This document shows positions 42,308 through 59,319 of a stretch of DNA of 64,000 nucleotides, in pieces (positions within the stretch are counted from its first letter, which is position 1; each line of letters starts with the position of its first letter). The translations under genes and the position numbers were made by a program. Source of the DNA: Gloeocapsopsis sp. IPPAS B-1203 (lineage in GTDB: Bacteria > Cyanobacteriota > Cyanobacteriia > Cyanobacteriales > Chroococcidiopsidaceae); contig NZ_PEIG01000002.1 of the NCBI RefSeq assembly GCF_002749975.1, positions 248,001 through 312,000 of the forward strand. Direction: 5' to 3'. The notes beneath the pieces were generated by a model. The model was not told where the DNA came from. It worked only from the letters and a program-made list of their open reading frames with translations, and searched no databases.

Positions 42308-42378
42308 GCGGGCATAGTTTAGTGGTAAAACCATAGCCTTCCAAGCTATTGATGCGAGTTCGATTCTCGCTGCCCGCT
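42308..42378 (+). tRNA. tRNA-Gly (anticodon UCC)
   Basis: 71-nt gene. Acceptor GCGGGCA pairs with TGCCCGC. The D arm contains AGTGGTA, the anticodon stem is ATAGC/GCTAT with loop CTTCCAA (anticodon TCC), and the T arm is GCGAG-TTCGATT-CTCGC. Discriminator T; no encoded CCA. The 3' 44 nt are duplicated at 59275, so it is the integration site of the adjoining element and is regenerated by it. Confidence 0.97.
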
Positions 42379-42379
42379 T
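42335..42379 (+). other. attL core (45-bp direct repeat, tRNA side)
   Basis: Perfectly identical to 59275-59319, 16,940 bp away. It runs from the anticodon stem to one base past the tRNA 3' end. This is the hallmark of tyrosine-recombinase integration into a tRNA gene. Confidence 0.95.
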
Positions 42380-42383
42380 AAAG

Positions 42384-42440
42384 AGAGAAGCGCTGAAACT
42401 ACTTACACAAAGTTGGTTTCAGCGCTTCTCTTTTTGTTTT
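42384..42440 (+). terminator. Intrinsic terminator after tRNA-Gly
   Basis: A perfect 16-bp stem (AGAGAAGCGCTGAAAC at 42384-42399 with its complement at 42416-42431), 16-nt loop, then TTTTGTTTTT. It lies inside the element, so the integrated DNA supplies the tRNA terminator and also insulates its own genes. Confidence 0.9.
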
Positions 42441-42465
42441 TAAGCTTTGTGCTAAAGCTTAGTAA

Positions 42466-42510
42466 TCTACCAAGGCTCTACCAAAAGTCTACCAAAGCAA
42501 AATGGTAGAC
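42466..42510. repeat. Left phased TCTACCAA repeats (putative recombinase arm sites)
   Basis: TCTACCAA starts at 42466, 42477 and 42488, exactly 11 bp apart. An inverted copy (TGGTAGAC) lies at 42503-42510. The same motif recurs inside the right end at 59186-59229. This is consistent with helically phased binding sites for integrase or an excision factor. Confidence 0.7.
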
Positions 42511-42671
42511 TTTTAACAGTGGCTGTGCTGCTTTGTAACTCTGCAATACAAAATCTCTGATATCCTAAATTCAGTAATTGGGTAATGTATCCGTAAACCT
42601 TACAGTTTTGCGTATTTACCCTGATTTTTGATTTTTCTATTCCTGATTAAATTTGGAGTGTATAAAAAGTA

Positions 42672-42724
42672 AAAAAGCAGCACCTCTAAGACTTTTGACC
42701 GAGTTCAAGGGGGGGCTGCTTTTT
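42672..42724 (+). terminator. Hairpin with T-tract upstream of the replication gene
   Basis: AAAAAGCAGC (42672-42681) pairs with GCTGCTTTTT (42715-42724). The run of A on one side and T on the other allows termination in both directions. It may end a short leader transcript made before the primase gene (attenuation) or block read-through from the left end. Confidence 0.55.
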
Positions 42725-42759
42725 GCTGTTGTACTTGCTGCTATTAGGACAGTGTACAC

Positions 42760-42861
42760 ATGAATAATACAACATTTCTCAATGGCATAACGGTTGTCAG
42801 CAACACAACCTCGCTAAATCTTGTTGCATTGCACACCTTCAGTTTTGTGGAGGTGCTGTAA
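42760..42861 (+). CDS. Candidate leader microprotein (33 aa) coupled to primase
   Basis: Frame MNNTTFLNGITVVSNTTSLN... ending FSFVEVL. It starts with an ATG about 10 bases after an AGGA and stops at TAATG, sharing one base with the primase start. The primase ribosome site (GGAGG) lies within it. Overlap of this kind suggests translational coupling. No homologue is recognised and it may simply be a regulatory leader. Confidence 0.4.
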   Translation: MNNTTFLNGITVVSNTTSLNLVALHTFSFVEVL

Positions 42862-45788
42862 TGCAGGAATACAACCGTACTACTCAACCACGATTAACTG
42901 AAGTTACGAAATCTGAGCCATGCATTCACTGCGGTAAACCGGACTGGTGCTATCGATTAGGTGAATTGACAGTCTGCAAACGCGATGTTGAACCAGCAGA
43001 CGGATGGCATCGTACTGAGAAGGCAGACCGTGATGGTTCTTACTTCTACGCGCCAAACATACCGCTAAAACCGATTAGAGCAGCGAGTAAACAAGAATTC
43101 TTCTATCCGGATCGCGAAGGCAATCAACTGCTGAAGGTGGTTCGCATCGATGACGGCAACGGTAAAAAATCTTTTGCTCAATATCACTGGAATGGCAAGC
43201 GCTGGTTAAAGGGATGTCCCCAAGAAATCCGATCGCGTATTCCGATTTACCGATATCAGCAGATCAAAAAAGCGATCGCTGCGGGGCGGACGATATTTTT
43301 TGTTGAAGGAGAGGGCGTTGCTGACGCGCTACACAAACTTGGACTTGCTGCAACGACAACTTTAGGTGGTTCAGGTAAATACCGCGCTTACGGGGGCTAT
43401 TTAGACGACTTAAAGGGTGCAGATATAGTTTTATGCCCTGACCGCGATCAACCAGGCTTAAAGCACATGGAAATGGTCGCTGAGGAATTTCCTGATGCAC
43501 GATGGTTATACGCGCCGCCAGGCGAGTTCTATTGGCAGAATTTAGTTCCTTCAAGCGGTTTAGATGTTTCAGATTGGATTTCTGACGGCGCAACTAAAGA
43601 AGACATTGTTAGTGCTATTAATACTAATAAAATTTCTTTACTCTCACACGCGTCCGCGCGTAAAATAAAAGAAGAAAAAAGTCAATATATTGACTCAAAC
43701 AACCACCAATTAACGGTTCCAAGCGCTGACGAAGTTTACACACAAAAAGCACTCGATGCGCTTTACAGCGATACAAATTGGATCGCGGTTGATAAGCAGT
43801 TGTATCGGTGGACGGGAACGCATTACGAATTAGTCTCGGAAGCTGCGGAGAAGGCGCGGATCTCGCGGTGGTGTAATTCGACTCCAGTACAGAGGAATAG
43901 CGACAACTGGTCATACAGTTATGCGAAATCAAGTTACGTCGAGGCAATTTGGAATTGGCTAATCGTCAGTTTTGCGGTTGATCCAGCGTTGGTTAACCCT
44001 CCAGGGCTAAACTGCCTCAACGGTGTATTAAAAATCGAATGGCGTTTGAATGTGCCGTCCTGGACGCTCGTACCGCACGATCCGGCGGTGATGTACACCT
44101 ATGTTGGGCAATTCGAGTTTGACCCGAATGCGGACCCAACTAATTGCGATCGCCTACTTGCTTGCTTGGATCAACCGCAACAGGAAATATTCATCAAAAC
44201 CTTAGCAGCGAGTCTTGACCTCAAAACCGTGCGTTCGTACCGAGGGCGAAGTATCAAGGCACTTTTGTGCAAAGGTGACGGTAACAACGGTAAGGACAGC
44301 CTCAGAGAAGTCGTGCAGCTTCTTTATGGTGTCGGGGTGATTAGTGCTACGGTGGGTGATTTCCAGTCATACGATCAGGGACGCAAATTTACGCTAGCTA
44401 AGCTTGAGGGAGCGCGGATCAGTTGGAGTAGTGAAAATTCAAGTGTTAACCAACTCGATAATTTGCAGAGTCTCAAAGCGGCGATCACTGGTGAACCACT
44501 TGATTTAGAGCGTAAAGGTGTTGACGAGCGCGTGATGTTGCCGACGGCAGTGTTTTTATTCAACATCAACAACGTGCCTAATTTGCAAGCGTCGTTAGAG
44601 GCGATTCAATCGCGTTGGGCAGTTTTATCCTTCACCAAGACTTTCAAGGTTAATGCTGACCCAAATAAAGGGGAAATCGAGGCAGATCCACGTTTCCGGT
44701 ATGACCCGCAGTTTTTACAACGCGAGGTTGTGCCAGCACTGCTCAACAAGATGCTAGCGGTGTTACCGGAAGTTGCGGCGAAAGCGATTGACTACATCTG
44801 CACCGAAGCGGCGTTAGAGGTTATCCAAGAGGAAACGAATCACTTATGGGCGTTCGCTCGACAGACAGGGCTTGATTACCAAGTTGGGGGCAAAGTATAC
44901 ATAAACGACCTATGGCAACGCCTTAGAGATTGGTATATCGCTAATGGCACGTTGGTAGTGACCACTGACGACAAGGGCAAACAAAAGAACGAATGGCATG
45001 AGCAACCACGTCGCGGCGATCGCAATATCAAAGCAGCAAATCAGGTGTATCAACGCTTTATTGAGCTATTCCCGAAAGCAAAGCGCCTAAGAGATAGTTC
45101 CTCAAGCGACAGAAAAGGTCAGTTTTACCTCAATGGCGTTTCGTTTATTTCAGTTGGTGAAGCAAGTGAAGCAATTGGTGAAGCAATTGGTGAAGCTACA
45201 GCCCTCTCCCAGAGCCAAAGTGAAGCAAGTGAAGCAATTAAGGGTATATTGATTTCACTTACGCAAATCACCACTGCTCGGCTGAAACCCTTGGAAATAC
45301 GTGAAGTGCTACAAAAAATTGCATCTGAAGGTGATGTAGCCTTAATTGCTTCACTTGCTTCACTGGCAGACACAGCAAGGGCTGTAGCTTCACCAACTGC
45401 TTCACCATTGCTTCACTTTGCTTCACCAACTGCTTCACCAAAGGAGGCTCAAGTGACAGATCCTTCGCAAAATACATTTGCAACTGATTCACCAATAAAT
45501 GCCCCTAATGCAGGGATTGCAGCCTTCAATGCCTCGATCAACGGTGAAACAAACATCAAAACTGGCGACAACCACAATAATTTTTTTGCTGATCCAAGTA
45601 ATCACAAGTTCAAAGTAGGCTCGAAAGTCGCAAATATTGACCCGAAGAGCGAATCCTACAACTGGCACGGCACGATCACCGCGATCGATGGCGATAAAGC
45701 AAAAGTTCACTGGGAGGAGCGAGCGCAAAGAAAAATCAGGGGCGGGGCGGTGCTAAAACACTCTTTGAGCGAACTACGGCTGATTTAA
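42861..45788 (+). CDS. Primase-helicase (zinc finger, toprim, SF3 helicase), P4 alpha/D5-like
   Basis: 975 residues, the element's replication protein. An N-terminal Cys cluster (C21, C24, C30, C39) looks like a zinc ribbon. A toprim-like domain has E149 in FFVEGEGVADAL and the D194/D196 pair in LCPDRDQPG. A superfamily 3 helicase domain has Walker A GDGNNGKDS (G472-S480) and sensor segment AVFLFNINN (563-571). Residues ~765-860 are low-complexity Glu-Ala and Ala-Ser-Pro repeats produced by the DNA iterons. The C-terminus (about 925-975, KVGSKVANIDPKSESYNW...) resembles a small SH3/KOW-type DNA-binding fold. GGAGG precedes the ATG. Combined primase and helicase imply autonomous episomal replication after excision. 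Confidence 0.88.
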   Translation: MQEYNRTTQPRLTEVTKSEPCIHCGKPDWCYRLGELTVCKRDVEPADGWHRTEKADRDGSYFYAPNIPLKPIRAASKQEFFYPDREGNQLLKVVRIDDGNGKKSFAQYHWNGKRWLKGCPQEIRSRIPIYRYQQIKKAIAAGRTIFFVEGEGVADALHKLGLAATTTLGGSGKYRAYGGYLDDLKGADIVLCPDRDQPGLKHMEMVAEEFPDARWLYAPPGEFYWQNLVPSSGLDVSDWISDGATKEDIVSAINTNKISLLSHASARKIKEEKSQYIDSNNHQLTVPSADEVYTQKALDALYSDTNWIAVDKQLYRWTGTHYELVSEAAEKARISRWCNSTPVQRNSDNWSYSYAKSSYVEAIWNWLIVSFAVDPALVNPPGLNCLNGVLKIEWRLNVPSWTLVPHDPAVMYTYVGQFEFDPNADPTNCDRLLACLDQPQQEIFIKTLAASLDLKTVRSYRGRSIKALLCKGDGNNGKDSLREVVQLLYGVGVISATVGDFQSYDQGRKFTLAKLEGARISWSSENSSVNQLDNLQSLKAAITGEPLDLERKGVDERVMLPTAVFLFNINNVPNLQASLEAIQSRWAVLSFTKTFKVNADPNKGEIEADPRFRYDPQFLQREVVPALLNKMLAVLPEVAAKAIDYICTEAALEVIQEETNHLWAFARQTGLDYQVGGKVYINDLWQRLRDWYIANGTLVVTTDDKGKQKNEWHEQPRRGDRNIKAANQVYQRFIELFPKAKRLRDSSSSDRKGQFYLNGVSFISVGEASEAIGEAIGEATALSQSQSEASEAIKGILISLTQITTARLKPLEIREVLQKIASEGDVALIASLASLADTARAVASPTASPLLHFASPTASPKEAQVTDPSQNTFATDSPINAPNAGIAAFNASINGETNIKTGDNHNNFFADPSNHKFKVGSKVANIDPKSESYNWHGTITAIDGDKAKVHWEERAQRKIRGGAVLKHSLSELRLI
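45157..45438. repeat. Mirror array of GTGAAGC iterons within the primase gene (possible origin)
   Basis: GTGAAGC starts at 45157, 45166, 45178, 45190, 45220 and 45229. Its inverse GCTTCAC starts at 45348, 45357, 45387, 45399, 45410, 45420 and 45432. Spacings mirror each other from the centre outward (9, 30, then 9-12). Both strands therefore translate into SEASEA- and ASPTASP-like peptides. Such iterons next to a P4-type primase-helicase are candidate replication origin sites. Confidence 0.7.
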
Positions 45789-45803
45789 TGGGAGCAACCG
45801 ATT

Positions 45804-46280
45804 ATGAAACCTGAAACGGCTTACGCTAAAGCCCGTGACTTATACGATCGCGATTTTGTCGCGTGGTCAGACGAGCAAGCTTTGCTATTAGAACAAGAGC
45901 GATACAGCGAACTGGACTTGATTCACTTAATCGAAGAGGTGCGCGACTTGGGAAAAAGAGAACGCGACGCGATTGAAAGTCAGTTAGAGCGGTTATTGCT
46001 GCACCTACTCAAATGGGAATATCAACCGTCTAAAAGGACGAGTAGCTGGGAAATCTCAATCAAAGACGCAAGAAAACAAATTCGACGCCTGATCGAGAAA
46101 TATCCTGTTCTCGCCAAACATCTAGAAAACGAAAACACCATCTATTTGTGCTACAAACACGCACTAGAAGACGCGGCGGATGAAACTGGATACAGCGCGA
46201 ATACTTTCCCGCCAGAGTCCCCCTACTTGTTAGAGCAAGCGCTCGATTCGGATTTCTTACCCGAATCGACAGCCGAATAA
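45804..46280 (+). CDS. DUF29 protein (element copy)
   Basis: 158 residues of the helical DUF29 family, abundant in cyanobacteria and of unknown function. It shows the signature DRDFVAWSDEQALLLEQERY followed by LDLIHLIEEVRDLGKRERDA, LLLHLLKWEYQP and SWEISIKDARKQI. It starts 15 bp after the primase stop and is likely co-transcribed. The host gene at 59413-59898, outside the element, is a close paralogue also at the DNA level, so one copy probably derives from the other. Confidence 0.9.
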   Translation: MKPETAYAKARDLYDRDFVAWSDEQALLLEQERYSELDLIHLIEEVRDLGKRERDAIESQLERLLLHLLKWEYQPSKRTSSWEISIKDARKQIRRLIEKYPVLAKHLENENTIYLCYKHALEDAADETGYSANTFPPESPYLLEQALDSDFLPESTAE

Positions 46281-46376: not shown

Positions 46377-46637
46377 TTATTTTTCCTGCCACTCGTAACC
46401 AGTCCACGAGTAGCCCAATTCTGCCAACTGTTGAAACAACACCATACGTCCGTGACGAGCCGCTGCTAAGTGAAAGAAATACGGTGATACCGCATTAACT
46501 TCTGAAAGCTTGCGTACACCCAATAAATACTTCGATGTCAAACTGGGCATTCTCAAGCCAAAAGATTCTACAGTCCGCCGATCAAGTTCGAGGCTTAATT
46601 CTTCAGACCAACTCAGTTCAATCAGTTTTGATTTCAT
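46377..46637 (-). CDS. Hypothetical protein
   Basis: 86 residues from the ATG at 46635-46637 (MKSKLIELSWSEELSLELDR). A GTG at 46682 would extend it but would abut the divergent gene's start, so the ATG is preferred. Contains FHLAAARHGRMVLFQQLAEL, a helix-rich centre. No family recognised. It is divergent from the next gene, with a 45-bp gap, which might hold a small regulatory region of the element. Confidence 0.5.
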   Translation of the reverse strand: MKSKLIELSWSEELSLELDRRTVESFGLRMPSLTSKYLLGVRKLSEVNAVSPYFFHLAAARHGRMVLFQQLAELGYSWTGYEWQEK

Positions 46638-46682
46638 GTCAAGTGTGCGATCGTATTCAATGAACCGATTATTGTCTAGCAC

Positions 46683-46985
46683 ATGAAGAACGTCACAGAG
46701 GCTCTAGAAATAATTCAGCGCGGTTACAGTCGTGCTAAGCAAGACAAGCAAGAAGCTTATATTTGCCAATTGGTAAATAACGATCAAGGATTCAATACAT
46801 GGGAGATTGATGCAATCAAGCAAAAAGCATCTGAACTTTACTTTGAACTTCCCACGCATATTTCGGTTCTACCTATCGGTAAAAAGCCGACATCACAAAG
46901 GCTATTCGATGGTTTAATCGATATTTATTGCAACGATAATGACTTGCAAAACATGGTTGATTCAATGAAAACGAAAGTCTGCTAA
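46683..46985 (+). CDS. Hypothetical protein
   Basis: 100 residues, MKNVTEALEIIQRGYSRAKQ..., mixed alpha/beta with many charged residues, no membrane span. No family recognised. First of a plus-strand group (46683-47439) within the element, followed by two coupled short genes. Confidence 0.6.
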   Translation: MKNVTEALEIIQRGYSRAKQDKQEAYICQLVNNDQGFNTWEIDAIKQKASELYFELPTHISVLPIGKKPTSQRLFDGLIDIYCNDNDLQNMVDSMKTKVC

Positions 46986-47041
46986 CACAAAATATCAATC
47001 AACTCTATAGTTAAAATTGCAAGTGTTTTTGAGGAAATGTT

Positions 47042-47152
47042 ATGCCAGCAGTTGCAAACGGCAGCCACGCAGTACAAGGGAATATACAAGATATTGAACT
47101 TGAAAAAGAAACCGCTGAAGTTAAGCCTAAAAATCTGGGGGGAATCCCCTAA
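47042..47152 (+). CDS. Microprotein (36 aa)
   Basis: Frame MPAVANGSHAVQGNIQDIEL... ending KPKNLGGIP. The ATG at 47042 follows GAGG by five bases, a strong ribosome site, and the stop overlaps the next start (TAATG), so it is very likely translated. Acidic middle, no hydrophobic segment. No homologue recognised. Confidence 0.6.
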   Translation: MPAVANGSHAVQGNIQDIELEKETAEVKPKNLGGIP

Positions 47153-47439
47153 TGAAAGTTGTCAATCCTGAAATGCTCTCTAACCCCTATCCATTAGATT
47201 TCATGGACGGCATGATGAGCAATGAATTTTGCTACGAGAAAGCAAACAAGACATTATTGCAACCGCTTGAATTTAAAACAGAGAAAGAATGGCTAGCTTT
47301 TTGCAAACAAGTGTGGACTTGGAACGAGTCAACAGAACTAAGAGAAAGTGAAGCAATAGCCAATCAATTCTTGAGTCAATATCAAGACAATCCCAAGATC
47401 ATCGAAATTATCAAGCGAAAACTATCCGAGCAAATGTAA
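47152..47439 (+). CDS. Hypothetical protein
   Basis: 95 residues with PLEFKTEKEWLAFCKQVWTW and a C-terminal helix NPKIIEIIKRKLSEQM. Its ATG overlaps the stop of the 36-aa gene by one base; it is followed by an intrinsic terminator. It probably closes the left operon of the element. No family recognised. Confidence 0.6.
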   Translation: MKVVNPEMLSNPYPLDFMDGMMSNEFCYEKANKTLLQPLEFKTEKEWLAFCKQVWTWNESTELRESEAIANQFLSQYQDNPKIIEIIKRKLSEQM

Positions 47440-47531: not shown

Positions 47532-48044
47532 ATGGCGACGATTATTCCTGGTGCGAATGCAACCATTAAATCAAACACTGCCGAAGGACAACTGCACGAA
47601 TTATGTACGTATTTAGAAATCAATGAAGCCATCTACAGCGCCAATAATCCCACTGCAACCATCGACAACATCAGCAGCAATCACTTTCAAAATTCAGCTA
47701 CATTCAGCGCAAGCTTTAGTATTCCAGTTCAACAAACAATCAATCCAGATGGACAAATTGTTTATTCAGCAACAGACTACCTAAACAACATCTCTTTTAC
47801 CTCTGGTAGCGGTGGTACTTTTAAAAGTTCAACGTGTGCCGGTTACTTTATCGAAGTTGTCATTTACCTGCAAAACCTGGAAAGAAATCTAGCAACAAAC
47901 CCAGAGAATCGTAATTATATTTCTGGAACATTCAATTCAGACAGCACAATTTTTAGTGGTGCAATTAATCTGCCTGTGATTTTGAGCATCGATAACAACG
48001 GGCGCGTTGTCTACGCAGCCCAAGAGTATCTTGTTAACCCTTAA
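47532..48044 (+). CDS. Two-repeat hypothetical protein
   Basis: 170 residues built from an internal duplication. Residues ~19-84 and ~103-167 align, each beginning with a helix (LHELCTYLE / FIEVVIYLQ). Each ends with a beta region IPVQQTINPDGQIVYSATDYL / LPVILSIDNNGRVVYAAQEYL. Beta-rich and without membrane segments; could be a structural or binding protein. No ribosome site seen before the ATG. Converges on the next gene with a 4-nt overlap. Confidence 0.65.
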   Translation: MATIIPGANATIKSNTAEGQLHELCTYLEINEAIYSANNPTATIDNISSNHFQNSATFSASFSIPVQQTINPDGQIVYSATDYLNNISFTSGSGGTFKSSTCAGYFIEVVIYLQNLERNLATNPENRNYISGTFNSDSTIFSGAINLPVILSIDNNGRVVYAAQEYLVNP

Positions 48045-49045
48045 TCAACATCACCTTTTTTAAGTAACTCGCGCACCGTACTAGACCAGTTATCAGGTTC
48101 GCGTTCAGGGTAAAGAAACAATTTATTGTGCTTTGATAGCATCCGTCCTGAAAGTGTCTTTTTGCCATCACGTCGCTTGTCGTCAAGTTGCACAAGTTTA
48201 GTGTTCCAGATGCTTAGCCACGCGGGATAAACATCAAAGCTACTGTAACGGGCGCGATCTGGATCTCTTGCTACATCACCTTTGGTGTAGTCGATCTTAT
48301 TGGCAGTAATCTTGCGAATCTTGCACTGAGTGAATTCTAAAAACTTCTCTAAATTGCGAATTGCCGTTGCTTCAGTTGAGCCACCAGACACCATTTGATG
48401 AATGCCCTTAGATTCCTCATCTAAACTCACATATGCTCTTGCAGACCATTCACCCCAATTCTGCCCTTGAGAGCCGCCACAAGCGTTTCTAACCGCTTGA
48501 TAGGTAATCTTAGAGCGATCTACTAGTGGAATCGTGACATGACGCCTAGAGAACCATTTAGTGCCTACTTGGTAGTAAGGAGGGCGCTTGTACGTTGTCA
48601 AAATAATCTGCATCGTAATTCCCGTGCGTGGTTTTGCCCTTAAGTACTCATCGAGTGGATAACCTAACCACGCCACATCACCACCATTCATCGTTTTATT
48701 CATCAGGTGCAAATTCATAATCAAGCTCACCTGACTCATCAACGCTAATGGCGAACCCATCAACAAGTACGATTCATCTTTGTTCTCACGATCTGGAAAG
48801 AATTCAATAACGCGGTAGCCTTCAATTTGTTGTGCATCCGCTTGCTCATTCAACTCTTTGATGCGGGGACGATTTGAGAAACCTTGACCCCAATAATGAT
48901 CTCTAAACTTCGGGTTAATTTTGACAAAACGCGGAAATCCATCCTCAAAGTCTTTAATCCAGTTATCCAAATCAAAATCAACACGCCGCACATCATTCGT
49001 AATGATCCGCTGAATTAACTTTTCACCAGGAACTAGATTAGACAT
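48041..49045 (-). CDS. Hypothetical protein, last gene of the minus-strand cassette
   Basis: 334 residues from the ATG at 49043-49045 (MSNLVPGEKLIQRI); a TTG at 49057 would add four. Soluble, with segments DHYWGQGFSNRPRIKELNEQ, GYRVIEFFPDRENKDESYLL and RRHVTIPLVDRSKITYQAV. No Walker motif, so it is not a packaging ATPase. No family recognised. It follows the 558-aa gene by 15 bp. Confidence 0.7.
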   Translation of the reverse strand: MSNLVPGEKLIQRIITNDVRRVDFDLDNWIKDFEDGFPRFVKINPKFRDHYWGQGFSNRPRIKELNEQADAQQIEGYRVIEFFPDRENKDESYLLMGSPLALMSQVSLIMNLHLMNKTMNGGDVAWLGYPLDEYLRAKPRTGITMQIILTTYKRPPYYQVGTKWFSRRHVTIPLVDRSKITYQAVRNACGGSQGQNWGEWSARAYVSLDEESKGIHQMVSGGSTEATAIRNLEKFLEFTQCKIRKITANKIDYTKGDVARDPDRARYSSFDVYPAWLSIWNTKLVQLDDKRRDGKKTLSGRMLSKHNKLFLYPEREPDNWSSTVRELLKKGDVD

Positions 49046-49060
49046 TGTGCTTACCAACGT

Positions 49061-50737: not shown

Positions 50738-50752
50738 GATTTAATAGGTAAT

Positions 50753-50926: not shown

Positions 50927-51614
50927 TTCTCCTCACAGTTGCTGAATTAATTGCTTTTTGAGCAAAGTAACTTTGTTGCCTACGAAATGTATTTGAAATT
51001 TGGTCTTGATGTCTCCTGTAACAACACAAAGGCTTTTGTAAATTATAGATATCGCAAGTTTCTGATAACCTTAAACACAAATCGTAATCTGCTGCAAACT
51101 TGTACGTTTCGTTAATCCCTCCAATAGCTTCAAAAGCAATTCTTTTAATTAACCGGAAGTGGAAAGTAATAAAAAGCTTCAATAATTCATCTTGACTGTA
51201 TTGATATTTACATCGGTGTCCTAGCCCTAGCTTGTCTCCTTGTTCATCAATATCAAAATATTGTGTATAAACCATTCCATATTTGGGGTTGCTTTCTAGA
51301 AAGCTAACTGTTTCTTCTAAACAGGTCGGCAGAATCAAGTCATCACTATCTACCCAAGCTAAATATTTATTACTTGTCATTTTCAGCGCTTGACTCAGCG
51401 ATTGAGTAAAGCCTTGTTGTTTTTGATTAACAACTTTCACTCTAGAGTCAAAGCTTGCATACTTTTTAGCAATATAGAGTGAGTTATCGGAAGAACCATC
51501 ATTCCAAACAACTAAATTAAAGTCAGGATATGTTTGTGAAAGTATACTTTCAATACATAAAGGTAGATATTTTTCACCGTTATGTGTAGACACTATTATG
51601 TCAAGTAGTTCCAT
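50907..51614 (-). CDS. Family 2 glycosyltransferase
   Basis: 235 residues with a GT-A fold. DIIVSTHNGEKYLPLCIESI opens the nucleotide-sugar site, VVWNDGSSDNS follows, and the metal-binding DxD motif is D89-S-D91-D92 in YLAWVDSDDLILP. No membrane anchor. It is inside the element between two unknown genes, overlapping both (14 and 20 nt). It may modify a virion component, the host surface or defence-relevant glycans. The sugar donor cannot be read. Confidence 0.88.
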   Translation of the reverse strand: MELLDIIVSTHNGEKYLPLCIESILSQTYPDFNLVVWNDGSSDNSLYIAKKYASFDSRVKVVNQKQQGFTQSLSQALKMTSNKYLAWVDSDDLILPTCLEETVSFLESNPKYGMVYTQYFDIDEQGDKLGLGHRCKYQYSQDELLKLFITFHFRLIKRIAFEAIGGINETYKFAADYDLCLRLSETCDIYNLQKPLCCYRRHQDQISNTFRRQQSYFAQKAINSATVRRNASQSL

Positions 51615-52581: not shown

Positions 52582-52851
52582 AAATAGTTAGTTGCATCCA
52601 AGCTATTTCTAACTTAATTTGCTATTAAGTAGTATCAGTATATTCTCTAATTTGTACATCAGTGATTCTACTATTTATCTCATAGTTTCTACTGAGTATC
52701 GTTAGAACTAGGATCATTATCTTGAATAGAGTTAAATAATTTTTCTGGGACTCTTTAAGGGGTTGTAAAAATACAGCAAAATTTACTGAAGCTCTTGCCA
52801 ATTGATGTTGTCTATGGCTAGTTTTGATTTGTCAATATCAAGGTAATAAAT
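52582..52851. promoter_or_regulatory. Divergent promoter region between the two cassettes
   Basis: 270 AT-rich bases separating the minus-strand and plus-strand operons. AAGG lies before the 52852 start. I could not assign specific operators. It is the only place where both late-type operons could be controlled together. Confidence 0.5.
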
Positions 52852-53520
52852 ATGCCACGTCGTAGACAACGATTTGCTGCTTTAGAACGTCAATTTAGAG
52901 AATCTGGTGGTCAAGCTGCTGCTGGTAGTCGCTTAGCTGGCTACATTGATTTCAAAACAGGTAAAACTAGTATCAAAGTTTCTAGAGTATTAACTGCTGA
53001 GCAACGCAAGCGCTTTGGATATGCAATTTTACCGTTCGGTTTATCGGTGTCTGCAACTCCAAGTCCATCTGAACGTTATGCGGCTGCAATTACTGCTTAT
53101 TCCAATTCAGGTAGACGCGATTTAGGGTTGAGTGATAACGAATGCGGATATGACAATATCGGTGAAGAAACGACCCAAGACGATAATTTTTATCCGGCAT
53201 TAATCCGCTGTTTCATACCTAGTGGAACTACAGTAGAAACACCAACTTCAGCGATTACTCGTAAAGAATACCGACGTCGTCCAGGTAGAAGTATTAGTTT
53301 TCCCTTTGGGCGGACTGTTACCAGCGTAGTTGATGCTAAAACAGGTGAAGCTGAATCAACTTTAAATAACGTCGATCAGTTGGATGTTCGCAAAGGTTTA
53401 GCCCAAAAAGCTAAGAATGGCAACGGTACAAATAAAGCTTTATCAGTCAGTTTTGAGCCGGAAGCCTTTAAAGTTGGCAAGCCCGATCTTGCTTCACCTG
53501 CTGCTCAACAAAATCCATAA
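52852..53520 (+). CDS. Basic hypothetical protein, first gene of the plus-strand cassette
   Basis: 222 residues. The start is Arg-rich (MPRRRQRFAALERQFRES), the centre beta-rich (YAILPFGLSVSATPSPSERY), and there is a second basic patch (TRKEYRRRPGRS) and a Pro/Ala tail. Basic N-termini of this sort bind nucleic acid or act as scaffolding in small coat proteins. Being first in the operon fits a major structural protein, but I recognise no family. Confidence 0.65.
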   Translation: MPRRRQRFAALERQFRESGGQAAAGSRLAGYIDFKTGKTSIKVSRVLTAEQRKRFGYAILPFGLSVSATPSPSERYAAAITAYSNSGRRDLGLSDNECGYDNIGEETTQDDNFYPALIRCFIPSGTTVETPTSAITRKEYRRRPGRSISFPFGRTVTSVVDAKTGEAESTLNNVDQLDVRKGLAQKAKNGNGTNKALSVSFEPEAFKVGKPDLASPAAQQNP

Positions 53521-53536
53521 TCTATAAATTCCTACT

Positions 53537-53803
53537 ATGCAACAAGTTATCGATCCACTTAAGCGTAAAGCTTTAGCTGATTGCTTTTATTTAGAGGTTC
53601 CTCTAATCAACGCAAGTGATGACGAGATTACTCACAACATTGCAAATGCAATTGCTATAGAGCAAGTCGCGACAGCAATGCTTGATGGATCGATGTCAAT
53701 TGAAGACTTATTAGAGTCAGCCGAAGATTTGATTGCAGACATGGATACTTATGTCGAGGAAGTCGAAGCCAATTTAGAGGAAACGTTGCTAATTCTGCCA
53801 TGA
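53537..53803 (+). CDS. Small acidic protein
   Basis: 88 residues, strongly acidic and helical: the second half (EDLLESAEDLIADMDTYVEE) could form a coiled coil. It overlaps the next gene by 4 nt (ATGA). Unknown function; acidic partner of the basic 222-aa protein is one possibility. Confidence 0.65.
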   Translation: MQQVIDPLKRKALADCFYLEVPLINASDDEITHNIANAIAIEQVATAMLDGSMSIEDLLESAEDLIADMDTYVEEVEANLEETLLILP

Positions 53804-54801
53804 GTGGTTACAAGATTGATGACAACAAAACATCAAGCGCAATATTTGCCAAATTTGCAGATCGCGCTTATGCACTAGATTTCGTTGGTGCAATGAATGA
53901 ATTAGACATTGCACTGCCACGTTTGGCGAATCGCATCGTTGCAGACCTCAAACCGCTGGTGAATAAGATCAATCAGGGTTGGCAGTTTTTTAAACGCTGG
54001 TGGCAAGATGACCCTGTTGGCGCTACGGCTGGTGGTATTGCTGCGGTGTTGACCGTAGGTGTAGTGGTGGTAGTCGGTGGCAAGGTTCTAGGAACTGTTG
54101 CTGGCGGAATTTCAGCATTGAGAACAATCAAATTGCTGACACTGGCTAAAAATGCTTTGTATGCAGCTACAGCAGCAGGAATTGTTGGTTCTTTGATTCG
54201 CTTTGCTGTTCGTGGTGTGCAACGCTTGTGGACTTTTAATTGGAATGTCACTGATAAGCAACTTCGAGAACAGCAGAACAGCTTGATGTTGTCGCTAATT
54301 GGGCAAATGGGGGAAGCTGCGGGTACAGGAGTAGGGGCGTTGCTTTGTGGTTCTGCACCAATTGAAATTGCTAAACGCACTAACCTGGTCCGCGTCAATC
54401 CGATGATGTTAGCTCGAATTAGAGAGCTTACTGAGTTTGACCCGCAAAGCGATAACTACGGTGAACTGTATGAAGAGACGATGGAGAGTGTTAAAGCGTT
54501 AGTTAGTGTCGGTAACAGAGTATTTGCACAAATCATGTTTATGGAGGCTTATAAGAACATCCGTAAATGGATTAAGAATTATTCAAAAGACACTAAGTTA
54601 GGGCTGCTGTTCCCAGGGCTAGCACAATTGATTGAACAGTGGGGAGAAGAAGGCTCTCAAGCATGGTCATTTGCTAGTGCAATTGAAGAACGAATTGAAA
54701 GTATTCCTGACGATCGGCTGCGGATCTTTACTGAAGAATTCTATGAAGGTTTCACTGATTCGTGTACCGAAAGTGCAATGATTATTTCCTATGTTTTTTA
54801 G
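53800..54801 (+). CDS. Membrane protein of the plus-strand cassette
   Basis: 333 residues. Two or three hydrophobic Gly/Ala/Val segments lie at about 73-100 (AGGIAAVLTVGVVVVVGGKV...) and 117-138, preceded by the helix KINQGWQFFKRWWQDDP. A large helical soluble domain follows. It could be a membrane-inserted structural, pore or injection protein. No family recognised. Its stop TAG is immediately followed by the next ATG. Confidence 0.65.
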   Translation: MSGYKIDDNKTSSAIFAKFADRAYALDFVGAMNELDIALPRLANRIVADLKPLVNKINQGWQFFKRWWQDDPVGATAGGIAAVLTVGVVVVVGGKVLGTVAGGISALRTIKLLTLAKNALYAATAAGIVGSLIRFAVRGVQRLWTFNWNVTDKQLREQQNSLMLSLIGQMGEAAGTGVGALLCGSAPIEIAKRTNLVRVNPMMLARIRELTEFDPQSDNYGELYEETMESVKALVSVGNRVFAQIMFMEAYKNIRKWIKNYSKDTKLGLLFPGLAQLIEQWGEEGSQAWSFASAIEERIESIPDDRLRIFTEEFYEGFTDSCTESAMIISYVF

Positions 54802-55305
54802 ATGTTTAGTTCTGATTTACAAGATCGCTTAAATTGGGACATCGTCCTTCGCAAAACTTACGAAGCCAAATCAGACCGCGCCGAAGCCCCAAGAACATAT
54901 GATCCAATTCCACCAATTACAACAACTGTTGACAGCTACACGCTGGCTATTGGTGCTAGTTCTAGTACTGCCAAGCAAACTTGGTATTTAGCAGCTAGGG
55001 TTGCTCCCCAATTACTTCTTACGCCTTCAACTACCAGTAATTTTGTTGCTTTGGTACAGTCAGAAGATCCTAAACGAATTGCACTTAATCGACTTAATTT
55101 AATTCGCTTTACTGACTTTGGTATCAAGCCTTATGTAGTTGAAATTAGAATCCCTAAATGGTTCACTCAAATGTATATCGAGGTATGGAAGTATTCAGGT
55201 ACTGATGTTTCAAATACTGATTTAGCTTCTCAGCTTCAAGATGTTAGATCGCGAATTATCAGGATTGAAAATAAGTTAGAAGTTCTTGACACTTGGGGTA
55301 ACTAA
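54802..55305 (+). CDS. Hypothetical protein
   Basis: 167 residues: beta-rich centre (TTVDSYTLAIGASSSTAKQT, IKPYVVEIRIPKWF) and a C-terminal coiled coil (QDVRSRIIRIENKLEVLD) typical of trimeric virion proteins. Starts directly after the previous stop and overlaps the next start by one base. No family recognised. Confidence 0.65.
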   Translation: MFSSDLQDRLNWDIVLRKTYEAKSDRAEAPRTYDPIPPITTTVDSYTLAIGASSSTAKQTWYLAARVAPQLLLTPSTTSNFVALVQSEDPKRIALNRLNLIRFTDFGIKPYVVEIRIPKWFTQMYIEVWKYSGTDVSNTDLASQLQDVRSRIIRIENKLEVLDTWGN

Positions 55306-56378
55306 TGTCTTGGCAATCAGTAGCAATCATTACTCCAAGTAAAGATTGGCAGTATACACCAGCGATACTTGGCAACTTCTTTAGAATCAAGCATTTATCT
55401 AATTCTGAATTTGCTAACAACTTTCGGGCTATTATTGCTCAAGCTTTTGAAGAACCGGATAAAATAACTTTCTTTGATATCAAAAGATTAGCTTTTAAAC
55501 CAGAGTCAGAAGCATTTTTATTTGTACAACCTGGGGGGTTACTTAATCGCAAATTAGCAATTAAACGACTGGATTATTTACCCGATGACTGGCAAATTGA
55601 AATTGAGGTTTTAGGTGGTATGAGTTCATCGATTAGTTTGCCAATCGAGCAATCTGAAGTATTAGGGCTTGAGGCAGCACTTACCTCAAAAGTTAATGTG
55701 GAAAGCTTGAGTACTCATATTTCAAGCGCTGATCATCCTGAAGCCACTGCTAGTAGCAATGGCATGATGTCTGCAATTGATAAACGGAAGTTAGATGAAA
55801 TCAAGCGCAGTTACGATCAGCAATTAGTTCCAGAAAATCCATCAGTTGGGGAGATTTGGAAAGAAAGAGATAGTAATAACTTACCGATTCAAGAGTGGTT
55901 TTGGAATGGTACTTATTGGCTAAGTTCAGCAGAGGTTGTTTTCACGCAAAATCTTAATCTGGGAAGTCTTGGAAACACAGTTAGTCCAGTGATTGATTTT
56001 ACATTAGGACAGGCAATTGACAGGCAAAATAACTTGTTTATCACACGATATATATTCTCGGCTTTAATGGGTAGTTCATCAAGCGCAAATTACACAACAA
56101 GGATTGGTGTTAGTAGACCGAGATTTGATCTAGGTTCTAGTGCTTACACAGAAATCCCAAATTCAGCTTTTACAACGACGATAGTAAGTGGAAACTCCTC
56201 TATTGTAAGTGCTGTAGAAAATCTTAATTTTCACCTTAATACTAGATCTGTAGAAGAGCTGCATAATACTGCTACCATCTCTCCTTTTAATTTTGTTTGT
56301 AGGCTGAGTTCAAGTAACACGACACAAGGATTAAGGCAACTTATGATTGGTATCTACTGTCGTTTAGCAAGAAAATAA
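55305..56378 (+). CDS. Tail-fibre-like protein
   Basis: 357 residues. The central stretch ATASSNGMMSAIDKRKLDEI (about 147-166) matches the GLMS-x-x-DK-x-KLD motif frequent in phage tail fibres and receptor-binding proteins. It is followed by NPSVGEIW and WFWNGTYWLSS, also common there. The N-terminal ~110 residues are a separate domain that may attach to the particle. The C-terminal beta region would be the tip. Motif-based; no full-length family recognised. Confidence 0.7.
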   Translation: MSWQSVAIITPSKDWQYTPAILGNFFRIKHLSNSEFANNFRAIIAQAFEEPDKITFFDIKRLAFKPESEAFLFVQPGGLLNRKLAIKRLDYLPDDWQIEIEVLGGMSSSISLPIEQSEVLGLEAALTSKVNVESLSTHISSADHPEATASSNGMMSAIDKRKLDEIKRSYDQQLVPENPSVGEIWKERDSNNLPIQEWFWNGTYWLSSAEVVFTQNLNLGSLGNTVSPVIDFTLGQAIDRQNNLFITRYIFSALMGSSSSANYTTRIGVSRPRFDLGSSAYTEIPNSAFTTTIVSGNSSIVSAVENLNFHLNTRSVEELHNTATISPFNFVCRLSSSNTTQGLRQLMIGIYCRLARK

Positions 56379-56379
56379 A

Positions 56380-56877
56380 ATGAAAATAAACATATCATAT
56401 AACCAGCAAGGACAACCCCAATTTGTCCATTTCAATCGCGGTACTCAAGAGTCTCCCATGTGGGCTTCTTTACCCTTTAATTCTGATATAAAAGAATTCA
56501 ATCCGCGATCTCCTATGGACTTTACTTTGATGAATGAAGTTGAAGATTTAGCGGAATGGAAAGCTCTTGATTTAAGCGATCGCCCTGCTGCAACAGATAC
56601 GAATACTCCTCTTGAGCCTGACTACCCAGGACTGACAGCAGCAGTAAGAGATACACCAATATTTGGGAAAGCCTATACAATTGCTAAATCTAATTCAGAT
56701 GTTCTTAGTGCTTTAAGTTTCTTCATGGCAGCACTTAATACAAATGTTTTCTTAGTTCAGGATTTGGAATTTGCTTTAAAGGATTTGCGTCGAGCATTAG
56801 AAGATGTTTGGAGCCAGGAAGACATTAACTATATCAATCAATCGCTTTTGACTAATAACTTTAATTTCCAGATTTAA
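56380..56877 (+). CDS. Hypothetical protein
   Basis: 165 residues. N-terminal beta region (INISYNQQGQPQFVHFNRGT) and a helical C-terminus with VLSALSFFMAALNTNVFLVQ and DLEFALKDLRRALEDVW. Directly after the fibre gene and before the holin-like gene, so possibly a fibre chaperone or accessory protein, by position only. Confidence 0.6.
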   Translation: MKINISYNQQGQPQFVHFNRGTQESPMWASLPFNSDIKEFNPRSPMDFTLMNEVEDLAEWKALDLSDRPAATDTNTPLEPDYPGLTAAVRDTPIFGKAYTIAKSNSDVLSALSFFMAALNTNVFLVQDLEFALKDLRRALEDVWSQEDINYINQSLLTNNFNFQI

Positions 56878-56897
56878 AAAATCTACTTATATGAACT

Positions 56898-57176
56898 ATG
56901 AACAGCAACAAAGATTTGCATTGCCCAGTTGACTGCCCTAATCGAATGTCGAGATTAGGGAAAGGTTATAGTTTTTTGTTTTCGATTGCTTTAACAGTGT
57001 TATTAGTGTGGCAATCATGCGATGTGAAATATTCCGATCAGACAGGTTTGGAGATTAAAACGCGGGATGTACCACTGGCAATTTTAGTCCCAAGTTTTTT
57101 ATTGATTGCTGGTGCTTTGGGAATCAATACAGATCCGATTGCCCAAAAATTAGGAAATATCTTAACTAAGGATTGA
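56898..57176 (+). CDS. Holin-like two-span membrane protein
   Basis: 92 residues with two predicted membrane helices (about 24-40, SFLFSIALTVLLVWQS; about 59-75, PLAILVPSFLLIAGALG) and short charged ends. Size, topology and position directly before a peptidoglycan hydrolase fit a class II holin, which permeabilises the inner membrane so the endolysin can act. No sequence family is recognised, so the call rests on context. Confidence 0.6.
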   Translation: MNSNKDLHCPVDCPNRMSRLGKGYSFLFSIALTVLLVWQSCDVKYSDQTGLEIKTRDVPLAILVPSFLLIAGALGINTDPIAQKLGNILTKD

Positions 57177-57180
57177 AGAA

Positions 57181-57903
57181 TTGAGCTATCCAAATTTGTC
57201 TCAATTGAATACAACTCTAACGCTTGATTCTTTAGTACAGAATCGAGTGTTAGTTACTGAAATTCAGTATTTATTAAGTGTTGGTGGTTTTTATAAAGGT
57301 AAAGTTGACGGCATATTAGGGAAGCAAACAATTGCTGCTTTTGTTGAATTTAAAAAACAGGCTTATTTGCAACATCCCGATCGACTAGGGCAATCTACAG
57401 CACGTGCTTTACTTGAATTACAGGGCAAAGCTTGGCACCCTAATCCAACTGAGACAAGTCCTAATAGAATTTCAACTGTGCAGTTTCGGTTGCCTACTGG
57501 CGAGATGGTGGCAACGAATGAGCCGATTTTTGAGTGCAAGCATTTTACGTGGGGTGAAGCTACTGGTAATGGATCTCGCAAGCTTGCAGATAAGACTATT
57601 TTGTTTAATGTTGTGAGAACTGCACAGTGTTTAGAGCGAGTGCGATCGCATTTTGGTAATCGTGCAATCAAGATTAATAGTTGGTATCGACCGCCAAGTA
57701 TTAACCGTGCTGTTGGTGGCGTATCAAACTCTACGCACATTCAAGGCTATGCAGTGGATTTTACGATTGAGGGAATTACACCAGTGGAGGTTTATCAGAA
57801 ATTGGATGCGTGGCACGGCAAGGCTGGGGGTTTAGGTAAGAGTGTTTTATTTACTCACCTTGACTTAAGAGGCTATGCAGCGCGTTGGATTTACGGGCGT
57901 TAA
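57181..57903 (+). CDS. Endolysin: peptidoglycan-binding domain plus M15 peptidase
   Basis: 240 residues from a TTG at 57181, four bases after the previous stop with AAGGA upstream. Residues ~22-80 are a PG_binding_1 domain (LLSVGGFYKGKVDGILGKQT). The C-terminal domain is an M15-type D-Ala-D-Ala/L,D-peptidase with INSWYRPPSINRAVGG and zinc ligands H186 and D193 in STHIQGYAVDF and H226 in FTHLDLRG. It would cut peptide cross-links for lysis. It converges on the integrase gene 39 bp away. Confidence 0.88.
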   Translation: MSYPNLSQLNTTLTLDSLVQNRVLVTEIQYLLSVGGFYKGKVDGILGKQTIAAFVEFKKQAYLQHPDRLGQSTARALLELQGKAWHPNPTETSPNRISTVQFRLPTGEMVATNEPIFECKHFTWGEATGNGSRKLADKTILFNVVRTAQCLERVRSHFGNRAIKINSWYRPPSINRAVGGVSNSTHIQGYAVDFTIEGITPVEVYQKLDAWHGKAGGLGKSVLFTHLDLRGYAARWIYGR

Positions 57904-57941
57904 TTTAAATTGGACCTAGTCCGATATTCCAACTAGCAGAA

Positions 57942-59141
57942 TTAATCAATTGGTTTTAGATATTCCAATATTTTGTCATCTAAGTAATGTTTTCTAATGA
58001 CATCTGCACTAGAATCTGTCCACCGCGCGACAATTTCAGGTGCTACACCTTTAGCCACTTGCTCACTCATGAAAGTATCTCTGCATGAATAAGGAGTTGT
58101 TTCTCGTTCAACAATTGAATCTACTATTTTATTCCAAGCCGTTTTAGAAAAATTGGCATAGTTTATAACTTTACCTTTAGGACTAGGAAAAACCAATGTA
58201 GACGGTTCAAAACTTTCAGGACGAATTGATTGCAATAAGTTTTGTAGATTTGAACCACAAGGGAATTTTCGATTATTGCGATATCGAGAATTTTTAGAGC
58301 CTTCTGATTTGATAATTTTTCCGTTTCCTAATTGAACGGCAGATTGAGAAAAAATTATTTGTGAACAATCATGCTTAATTTGTCCCCAAGTTAGCCCTAT
58401 TGCTTCACTAGGTCGGCAACCTGTAAAAAAAAGAAACTTAACTAATGCAGTGTAGTGGCAGTATCCAAAACCAGTTACACCGCGTCCATTAAAGTTTCCT
58501 TTGTGTTGTTCAAAAGATTTAATAATCGCTTCTTTCTCTTCTTGATTAAATGCATTAGGTTTTGGTTCTTTTTCCCAGTTATGCTTGGGTAACTCTTGTG
58601 CCATTCCTTCATAAAGAGATGATTGCAAGCTGATTAAGTTGTATTTTATTCCCCATTTAGTTGCTGCATTTAAGTGTGTTAGTATGCGCTTAGTCATACT
58701 GTTAGTTGTGTTATCTAAAAGCCACTGCCTAACTTCTAGAGCTTCATCTAGTGCTTGATAAGGGCATTTTTCTAGATATTTGTATACACTAGTTTTTAGA
58801 TAATGAATTGTGCTTTCTTTTAATCCGATTTGCTTGAATTCTAAATATTTACTAAAAAGTTGAGTGGTTGTTAAGTTGACTTTCTCAGTTGTTATCGCGA
58901 CTAACTGATTTTTTTGCTTGTACTTACTTAAAGAAGTGTCAAAAACATCATTTAAGAGATCTAAAGATATTTGATCCGCAATAGCGATCGCTTTACCAAG
59001 TGCTATTGGTTCGCTATATTTAGCGCCTTTAATTGGATTGAATTTATAAGTTTTATTATTGAGTTGAAATTGAATGCAGATTGAGCCGTTGTGATTAATC
59101 GGTTTAATGCGCTTGGGTTTAGTTGCAGCTTGCTCAAGCAT
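57942..59141 (-). CDS. Tyrosine recombinase (integrase)
   Basis: 399 residues. The SAM-like core-binding domain is at about 90-180. The catalytic domain has R243 in FFTGCRPSEAIGLTW, R354 in TPYSCRDTFMSE and the nucleophile Y386 in RKHYLDD. The usual histidines of HxxR and the H/W position are replaced (Y351, D356 and WTDSS), a pattern I associate with cyanobacterial element integrases. It catalyses integration into and excision from tRNA-Gly. It sits 134 bp from the right 45-bp repeat, i.e. at the tRNA-distal end, reading inward. Three TCTACCA motifs lie in its promoter. Confidence 0.93.
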   Translation of the reverse strand: MLEQAATKPKRIKPINHNGSICIQFQLNNKTYKFNPIKGAKYSEPIALGKAIAIADQISLDLLNDVFDTSLSKYKQKNQLVAITTEKVNLTTTQLFSKYLEFKQIGLKESTIHYLKTSVYKYLEKCPYQALDEALEVRQWLLDNTTNSMTKRILTHLNAATKWGIKYNLISLQSSLYEGMAQELPKHNWEKEPKPNAFNQEEKEAIIKSFEQHKGNFNGRGVTGFGYCHYTALVKFLFFTGCRPSEAIGLTWGQIKHDCSQIIFSQSAVQLGNGKIIKSEGSKNSRYRNNRKFPCGSNLQNLLQSIRPESFEPSTLVFPSPKGKVINYANFSKTAWNKIVDSIVERETTPYSCRDTFMSEQVAKGVAPEIVARWTDSSADVIRKHYLDDKILEYLKPID

Positions 59142-59185
59142 AGTCTTGTAAGCGGGAGTTTTAGTGAAGTGAATGTAGAGGGGAG

Positions 59186-59229
59186 TCTACCAAAAGTCTA
59201 CCAGTTGCAGCACGCGGAAAGTCTACCAA
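59186..59229. repeat. Right TCTACCA repeats (putative recombinase arm sites)
   Basis: TCTACCAA at 59186, TCTACCA at 59197 (11 bp later) and TCTACCAA at 59222, upstream of the integrase start and inside the right att core. They match the left set at 42466-42510. Integrase binding here could also autoregulate its promoter. Confidence 0.7.
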
Positions 59230-59274
59230 AGCCTGTAACGTTCTCAGGTCTTGAATTGTTCACATTTTGTTTTA

Positions 59275-59319
59275 AGCCTTCCAAGCTATTGATGCGAGTT
59301 CGATTCTCGCTGCCCGCTT
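59275..59319 (+). other. attR core (45-bp direct repeat)
   Basis: Perfect copy of 42335-42379: the 3' 44 nt of tRNA-Gly plus one T, without the 5' half. It marks the distal junction of the element and does not form a tRNA on its own. Confidence 0.95.

Follow-up and report, generated by a model that had tools for sequence, protein, structure and literature searches.

A 16.9-kb element in a cyanobacterial tRNA-Gly gene carries a conserved module of a possible small virus-like element family

What kind of mobile element carries an integrase, a replication gene, lysis genes and a fibre-like gene, without a recognizable capsid or packaging gene? The question is raised by an integrated element of 16,940 bp in a stretch of 64,000 nucleotides (hereafter the window; positions are counted from its first letter) from the cyanobacterium Gloeocapsopsis sp. 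IPPAS B-1203. An initial annotation, made from the letters alone, had offered two possibilities, a satellite using the particle of a helper or a small temperate virus with unrecognized coat proteins. Both survived the analysis reported here, which tilts toward the second because a conserved module of particle-type genes occurs in units of about 12.6-21.5 kb and because the host genome has no match to phrog_2 or PF05065. We put at roughly one half the probability that the element belongs to an apparently undescribed family of small temperate virus-like cyanobacterial elements, which would build their own particle from proteins without sequence relation to known capsids.

The integration of a 16,940-bp element in the tRNA-Gly gene is real. 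Two letter-identical copies of the 45-bp direct repeat that the initial annotation had described in tRNA-Gly lie 16,940 bp apart, the left one starting 27 nt into a tRNA-Gly(TCC) gene that is kept intact despite the insertion. A sister species (genome G017) has the exact empty site on contig C73, with both flanks joined: the left-flank match covers 34149-34958 and the right-flank match begins at 34914. Because these matches overlap by precisely the 45-bp repeat, the insertion and its ends are established. The att repeat, the integrase and the empty site in a relative that characterize integrative tRNA elements were all found.
42308..42378, plus strand: tRNA-Gly(TCC) gene, the integration target (ARAGORN)
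42335..42379, plus strand: attL, 45-bp direct repeat (repeat search; single copy in the G017 empty site, C73:34914-34958)
59275..59319, plus strand: attR, 45-bp direct repeat (repeat search)

A third species of the genus (G119) has the same two flanks about 9 kb apart, and therefore something else occupies the tRNA-Gly site there. At about 770200-779400 of its contig C1, we noted a different insert of about 9 kb at this site that includes a 1140-aa open reading frame (ORF). Just outside attR in the window lies a DUF29 gene (59413-59898) with 84% identity over 191 nt to the DUF29 gene of the element itself (45804-46280); G119 has a gene similar to the outside copy at the corresponding site.

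Judged by their recurrence in other genomes, the genes of the element that lack a known family are not orphans but a conserved module: g08, g14, g07, a basic protein of about 200 aa, a small acidic protein and g15/F5 are found together in cyanobacteria. The module genes of the window are as follows.
47532..48044, plus strand: g06, acidic protein of 170 aa that belongs to the module in some family members (profile in 22 loci, duplicates kept)
48041..49057, minus strand: g07, core protein of the module, corresponding to the alpha/beta portion of the fused model (36/291 genomes; fused to g14 in many relatives)
49061..50737, minus strand: g08, core module protein, spike or shaft candidate (alignments of relatives)
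51601..52581, minus strand: g11, accessory module protein with a conserved N-terminal part of about 180 aa (32/57 unique loci)
52852..53520, plus strand: g12, basic 222-aa protein, pI 9.8 (profile matches in both lineages)
53537..53803, plus strand: g13, small acidic protein, pI 4.1 (composition; relatives)
53800..54801, plus strand: g14, core module protein with two hydrophobic segments (helical in the model of a fused relative)
54802..55305, plus strand: g15, 167-aa module protein (profiles in relatives)

A search with g07 as a single protein found it in 36 of the 291 genomes of the order, and the 20 regions fetched around g07 matches had g08, g14, g11 and g06 as common neighbours. A pattern derived from the g14 alignment, scanned through genome_contigs (bacteria and archaea), returned 26 loci, all with cyanobacterial titles. 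Profiles placed g08 in 45, a basic protein of the g12/F2/F18 type in 39, g15/F5 in 35, g11 in 32 and a small acidic protein in 30 of 49 unique loci with g14; these counts express linkage rather than independent tests and lean upward, as the loci were picked through g07 or g14 and the profiles were partly trained on them, while the F180 type was left uncounted, which makes the basic count lean downward. For the 24 of these loci that extend 7 kb or more in both directions, the corresponding numbers were 23, 21, 18, 19 and 15. Duplicates are outside the counts, as are loci lacking a g07 or g14 match among their ORFs (L047, L133 and L134; L047 does have tblastn matches to both, lost through ORF picking), together with L034, L105, L107, L108, L109 and the short loci of the search tools.

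In 28 cases (duplicates kept) g14 and g07 form a single protein; in the window they lie in opposite operons. A profile of the fused g14-g07 protein (E ≤ 1e-5) indicated that 40 of 386 genomes sampled from the phylum, about one in ten and all in the class of the window (for a sample with an unstated number of genomes from other classes), carry genes of the unit, as do 11 of the 19 genomes of its own family, some matches being partial or interrupted by internal stop codons. At the DNA level, 85 of 291 genomes gave some match to the element, all of them pieces except the window itself, and the longest other match was 2.3 kb at 77% over the primase gene (G085). In the search of other cyanobacteria for the gene order, as the initial annotation had suggested, the module recurs in many genomes, but the whole element or complete order was found in no other of the 291 genomes searched by DNA. 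That annotation had also stated that its reading would fail if the gene order occurred nowhere else and excision was lacking; we found instead that the module recurs and that circular and tandem copies exist.

A second lineage emerged from the phylum-wide search, in which 13 of the 40 genomes matched in the g07 part only, mostly through proteins of about 275 aa in another layout. Here a large protein is followed by a g07-like gene, and several loci also have g12-, g13- and g15-like genes according to profiles of the window family (in L129, g12 at E 3e-23 and g15 at E 2e-23). The 8 unique loci of this lineage include the basic protein in 4, the acidic one in 4 and g15/F5 in 6. When four of the large proteins were scanned, two (L129 and L131) matched tail-fibre or collagen PHROGs, another had weaker tail-lysin and unknown matches, and the last had nothing below E 0.01. 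Cluster c0 of the second-lineage clustering is unclean, as it also holds the L130 primase. The host of the window has a second element of the first lineage, on another contig (G000:C20, locus L139 from about 4187) beside a tRNA-Lys gene; it combines relatives of g20, g11, g08, g14, g07, F2, F6, g15, g16 and g18 with an 848-aa protein that clustered with replication-type proteins.

Relatives of the element integrate, persist as circles and have been duplicated recently. Two are complete circular plasmids, Tolypothrix PCC 7601 unnamed14 (20,757 bp) and Allocoleopsis PCC 7113 pMIC7113.08 (20,803 bp), and two of six whole contigs tested, of 17,237 and 15,119 bp, overlap at their ends by 95 and 127 bp, as circles of about 17.1 and 15.0 kb would; a coarser circularity check that included three whole contigs found none circular. 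In Calothrix HK-06, two copies 20,327 bp apart are 99.994% identical over the 16,894 bp compared, with a repeat that begins inside tRNA-Phe. In G087, stretches 21,490 bp apart do not differ anywhere in the 12,439 bp compared, and the sequence at their end reads like the 3' end of a tRNA. A second-lineage unit of 12,578 bp in G310 is bounded by a 43-bp perfect repeat in tRNA-Phe. A tRNA gene was present in 8 of 25 loci scanned (Lys, Phe, Asn, Cys, Met and Ser); those of L139 and L106 lie immediately upstream of the g20-related gene. Altogether the units span about 12.6-21.5 kb, and the circles about 15.0-20.8 kb.

The element has 20 genes (g01 to g20, numbered from the ORF list, so that all gene calls are ORF-based), five of which have clear profile matches: the primase-helicase, DUF29, glycosyltransferase, endolysin and integrase genes. 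Two operons face apart, as annotated initially: the minus-strand one runs from g11 to g07 (52581 to 48041), its plus-strand counterpart from g12 to g19 (52852 to 57903). The remaining features are listed here.
42861..45788, plus strand: g01, primase-helicase with D5_N / DUF5906 (profile matches)
45804..46280, plus strand: g02, DUF29 protein (Pfam E 9e-45; repeat D1, 84% with the DUF29 gene outside attR)
46377..46682, minus strand: g03, 101-aa ORF of no known family (nothing matched at E <= 1)
46683..46985, plus strand: g04, 100 aa (homologue in L105, E 1e-45, between the primase and integrase genes of that relative)
47152..47439, plus strand: g05, 95 aa (homologue in L105, E 7e-53)
50753..50926, minus strand: g09, 57 aa (small homologues in a few relatives)
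50907..51614, minus strand: g10, GT2 glycosyltransferase (Pfam E 4e-32)
52582..52851, no strand: intergenic region between the divergent operons (gene layout)
55305..56378, plus strand: g16, fibre-like protein, variable (weak PHROG matches; homologues in relatives)
56380..56877, plus strand: g17, 165 aa with one hydrophobic segment (homologues in L102 and L103)
56898..57176, plus strand: g18, holin-like protein with two hydrophobic segments (homologues in L102 and L139; weak PHROG match)
57181..57903, plus strand: g19, M15 peptidase endolysin (profile matches)
57942..59141, minus strand: g20, tyrosine integrase (profile matches)

The recombinase, primase-helicase and endolysin assignments of the initial annotation are borne out by Pfam and PHROG profiles: g20 matches PF00589 (E 2e-7) and phrog_1 (E 2e-28), g01 matches D5_N (E 8e-7), DUF5906 (E 2e-9) and phrog_6088 (E 1e-30), and g19 matches PF08291 (E 1e-16) and phrog_894 (E 8e-25). 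Its other two functional calls hold in part. The holin-like g18 has the two hydrophobic segments but profile support only from phrog_297 at E 0.09, and the tail-fibre-like g16 has PHROG matches at about 1e-3, but to families of unknown function; fibre and lysis families are clearer in relatives than in the element itself. Its figure of 12 proteins without assignment becomes 13 genes without a useful match, plus g16, and its list lacked g10 and g02, both probably cargo. The region between the operons (52582-52851) is a probable regulatory region given the gene layout, and a promoter and terminator scan of the element gave numbers at or below those of shuffled sequences.

To what kind of particle, if any, could such genes lead? 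All 20 window proteins were compared with Pfam and PHROGs at E ≤ 1 (HMMER filters remove most matches above about 0.1), and in agreement with the initial annotation none matched a terminase, portal, HK97 capsid, FtsK/HerA, relaxase or transposase family. None matched a sheath, tube or baseplate family either, and no packaging or capsid-size-control family, whose genes are short and diverse, was among the matches. The weak hits were of g16 to phrog_20787 ("virion structural protein", E 0.29), of g14 to phrog_1533 ("tape measure", E 0.023) and of g19 to phrog_1224 (E 0.008), the latter placed in the head-and-packaging category although its description is that of an endolysin. The sole plausible Walker A motif of the element is that of the primase, a second pattern match in g11 looking spurious. 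By Walker A and profile scans, the element thus has neither the FtsK/HerA packaging ATPase of Vinavirales nor the Zot/pI-type ATPase of Inoviridae. A double jelly-roll capsid had no sequence match among window proteins or family profiles, with structures predicted for fused g14-g07 and g08 only.

We extended these scans to 148 proteins from ten loci, host flanks included, and to 103 proteins from four circles (three ORFs at the ends of circle records left out). No terminase, portal or capsid family was among the matches listed, which comprise for the ten loci the best 25 of 144 and of 32 families, beyond which PHROG families could include one, and for the circles the best 25 of 30 Pfam (E ≤ 1e-3) and of 26 PHROG families (E ≤ 1e-6), beyond which lie five Pfam and one PHROG. 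The Caudoviricetes hallmarks (terminase large subunit, portal and HK97 capsid) are therefore absent both from the window proteins and from the listed families of the four circles, and plasmids L080 and L081 have no match to phrog_2 (terminase). Among the listed matches of the circles are Phage_integrase in 3 proteins, DnaB in 1 and DUF3987 in 1, and the accessory families found in relatives are of virus type, namely endolysins, phage tail repeat, collagen and tail-fibre matches. Could the element be a decayed tailed prophage that has lost its head genes? The absence of head and packaging genes and the tape-measure-like and fibre-like hints would agree with this, but the same genes are shared by many lineages and by complete circles that have no head genes among their listed families. 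The reading frames of the window genes are also open, and purifying selection acts on the majority of the genes compared (see below), so that we consider decay very improbable.

Composition and conservation provide some clues to function. For the protein g12 and the families found in its position (F2, F18 and F180), the medians are 179-217 aa in length and 9.6-10.1 in pI; the small acidic partner families that often adjoin them have median pI values of 4.1-4.2. F18 and F180 are alike by profile (probability 92); F2 and g12 have no detectable relation to these or to one another. Such a pattern in F2, g12 and F18 with F180 would be expected of one interchangeable DNA-binding part; g12 is a candidate DNA-binding coat protein and g13 a candidate assembly factor. 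The two hydrophobic segments of g14 have a counterpart in relatives, as at least one is present in 32 of 45 g14-containing proteins of at least 250 aa. A variable N-terminal half of g08 precedes a CC motif, a helical stretch and a conserved C-terminal domain. Its first approximately 310 codons share 93% DNA identity with the G017 element, compared to 66% identity for the whole protein, and therefore the N-terminal half appears to be exchanged between elements. The coiled-coil N-terminus of g08 from one relative, L112, matches many tape-measure PHROGs (best E 2e-12); we do not favour a tape-measure role for g08, for which this coiled coil is the one argument. A motif like F-x-x-G-F ... P-W-G ... 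R-P-K-I was seen in two places, the g08 C-terminus of relatives and the region near the g07 N-terminus (48041-49057), and might be a docking peptide able to shift from one protein to the other.

Selection was estimated as dN/dS for fifteen gene pairs, 12 of which gave a finite value, with several dS saturated; all 12 values are below 0.6. The most constrained are g14-g07 and g07 (0.06-0.13), followed by g12 (0.17), with g08 looser (0.42-0.57).

Structure predictions with AlphaFold were made for the fused g14-g07 protein (27 rows, first row L065) and for g08. The fused model has a mean pLDDT of 74, its g14 part being all helical and its g07 part alpha/beta. Compared with the PDB by VIA-align, it resembled helical arrangements such as Vipp1 with Z near 9, in a range common for helices, and Foldseek found nothing in the PDB at E ≤ 0.001. 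One BFVD entry fell under this threshold, the unnamed 443-aa viral protein A0A510E869 (E 1.4e-5, TM-scores 0.18/0.21). The g08 model is poor (pLDDT 55), and BFVD gave nothing at E ≤ 0.001 for it. Sequence profiles against the PDB gave nothing below E 0.03, and the g14 alignment matched a Pam3 baseplate wedge chain at a non-significant E of 0.58. No coat was identified in the two models or in the profile searches of the PDB.

These properties allow a temperate viral cycle to be proposed. The integrase would recombine attP with the 3' part of the tRNA-Gly gene, and the excised circle would replicate through the primase-helicase, whereupon the two divergent operons (48041 to 57903) would be expressed. 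The basic g12 may coat or condense the DNA with the assistance of the acidic g13, and the helical, partly hydrophobic g14 could form with g07 a membrane, pilot or tape-like inner complex. As a putative host-attachment spike, g08 would have its variable N-terminal half swapped between elements; g11, g15, g16 and g17 may be accessory surface proteins; and the holin-like g18 and the M15 endolysin g19 would release the particles. Because no packaging motor is visible in the element, we propose that the DNA would be loaded by co-assembly or membrane envelopment rather than pumped. Lysis and attachment are suggested by gene families, and particle formation by conservation, by selection and by the lysis and fibre genes that lie alongside. 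In its most specific form, which we put forward tentatively and somewhat short of even odds, this proposal describes a new lineage of bacterial DNA viruses whose virion would consist of g08, g14, g07, a basic protein (g12/F2/F18), an acidic partner and g15/F5, without an HK97 or jelly-roll capsid and mostly without a packaging ATPase, and which would be common in cyanobacteria and missed by hallmark-based detection.

Several observations weigh against an autonomous virus. The absent motor and capsid homologues would equally be expected of a satellite, and a coat fold was recognized in neither the g14-g07 nor the g08 model. In G085 (L105, C16 10208-15923), relatives of g01, g04, g05 and g20 stand side by side with 0 module profiles in the 20 kb fetched, and therefore the replication and integration half occurs also without the module; this locus appears to be a smaller element or relic. 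Some members of the family may have a packaging motor, given a 396-aa P-loop ATPase with a Walker A motif on the Tolypothrix circle (L080:13323-14513) and a circle protein, probably the same one, that matches FtsK_SpoIIIE (E 2e-4) and HerA (E 4e-4) weakly. In PHROGs this ATPase is matched best, though weakly, by P-loop families that include a terminase (E 0.002), and it has no PDB relative by sequence; no credible Walker A was found in the smaller circle L111 or in plasmid L081. On the latter we noted a 489-aa protein (16220-17689) with a hydrophobic start that matches phrog_29669 (function unknown) at E 5e-39. Finally, 8 of 9 other carrier genomes match phrog_2 (terminase), the match of G045 being strong (E 3e-28) and the other seven ranging from E 2e-6 to 3e-4, and therefore helpers may be around. 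Five IMG/VR scans also gave no relative, where a virus with free particles might be expected; these scans depend on short exact peptides, although nearly the same A2 pattern gave the 26 loci in genome_contigs, which indicates that the approach works.

Alternatively, the element may be a new type of phage satellite, which would take capsid and terminase from a helper and bring its own tail or attachment proteins and lysis genes. The phrog_2 matches in other carrier genomes would lend this some support. The lack of capsid, portal and terminase families in the element and among the matches listed for the four circles is consistent with this, as are the size and the integrase and primase layout, which resemble those of P4-type satellites, and tail-like hints from the L112 coiled coil, the g14 tape-measure PHROG and the non-significant Pam3 match, together with the tail-fibre PHROG matches in 2 of 4 large second-lineage proteins. 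However, the genome of the host, home to two of these elements, matched neither phrog_2 (the control gave matches in 11 of 14 genomes) nor PF05065, the HK97 capsid (4 of 14), a weak argument as helpers need not be resident. Known satellites also rarely have several conserved structural-type genes and a lysis cassette. We regard a satellite as a serious but rather unlikely explanation. If it is true, these satellites would form a novel kind, supplied with attachment and lysis genes of their own. If the units make their own particles, they would be a virus group for which neither the shell nor the mode of DNA loading is known.

Fibre-like, lysis and hydrophobic helical proteins without capsid genes would also suit a tailocin-like killing or vesicle-forming device on a mobile element, that is, a DNA-free particle for attachment and membrane damage, and the g14 helices are generically, though not significantly, like ESCRT-III-like and pore-forming helices. 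The lack of sheath, tube and baseplate matches among the window proteins at E ≤ 1 argues against this, as does the module travelling with mobile units, circles among them, in the company of integration or replication families; such a device is improbable. Two relatives are filed as non-mobilizable plasmids, and the GT2 and DUF29 cargo would fit a non-viral integrative plasmid or island whose module forms a cell-surface structure, but the fibre families of the units, like their holin-like and endolysin genes, make this seem far-fetched.

A tblastn search of 50,697 phage records with five family proteins found no relative; of these queries only g07 was a window protein, so that g08, g11, g12, g14 and g15 of the window were not among them. 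The absence from collections is compatible with a virus group missed by hallmark searches and equally with elements that make no free particles. Five short DNA matches from the whole-element search were inspected for CRISPR arrays, and none had array repeats. The family is called undescribed in the sense that a literature search of limited coverage found no paper on it.

Among known systems, the element appears to work like a temperate phage or a satellite, and by the features compared it is a member of neither Caudoviricetes nor Inoviridae. Like P4-type satellites and phage-inducible chromosomal islands (PICIs), it has a tyrosine integrase at a tRNA gene, a primase-helicase, a small size and no recognizable head genes; unlike them, it has its own lysis cassette and a conserved structural-type module, and no packaging or size-control family was matched. 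Tycheposons are tRNA-targeting elements with a tyrosine recombinase from marine cyanobacteria, from which the gene set and module here appear different, a distinction drawn from their general description and not from sequence. The archaeal fuselloviruses and pleolipoviruses, small double-stranded DNA (dsDNA) viruses with a coat and no recognized packaging motor, the former integrating at tRNA genes, offer an analogy only, with no sequence or fold relation shown, and the present elements differ in their bacterial hosts and their genes for lysis. As is typical of phage-plasmids, some relatives are maintained in circular plasmid form, although the two plasmids have no known head genes listed and only 20.8 kb. 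The Vinavirales, corticovirus-like tailless prophages, are small temperate dsDNA viruses, some of which reside on plasmids and escape prediction tools (PMC11630473). They have a double jelly-roll capsid, whereas the element has no sequence match to one, no second credible P-loop protein and, as far as its sequence indicates, no Vinavirales packaging ATPase.

Two smaller observations concern individual relatives. Inspection by eye suggested internal duplications of an 80-100-aa unit in g06 (47532-48044) and in F2 proteins (e.g., L065:8460-9134), F2 having 45 domain rows for about 30 proteins. In the single-contig genome G007, two distant elements (C1, 893976 and 2964250) share 94% identity over 7.6 kb.

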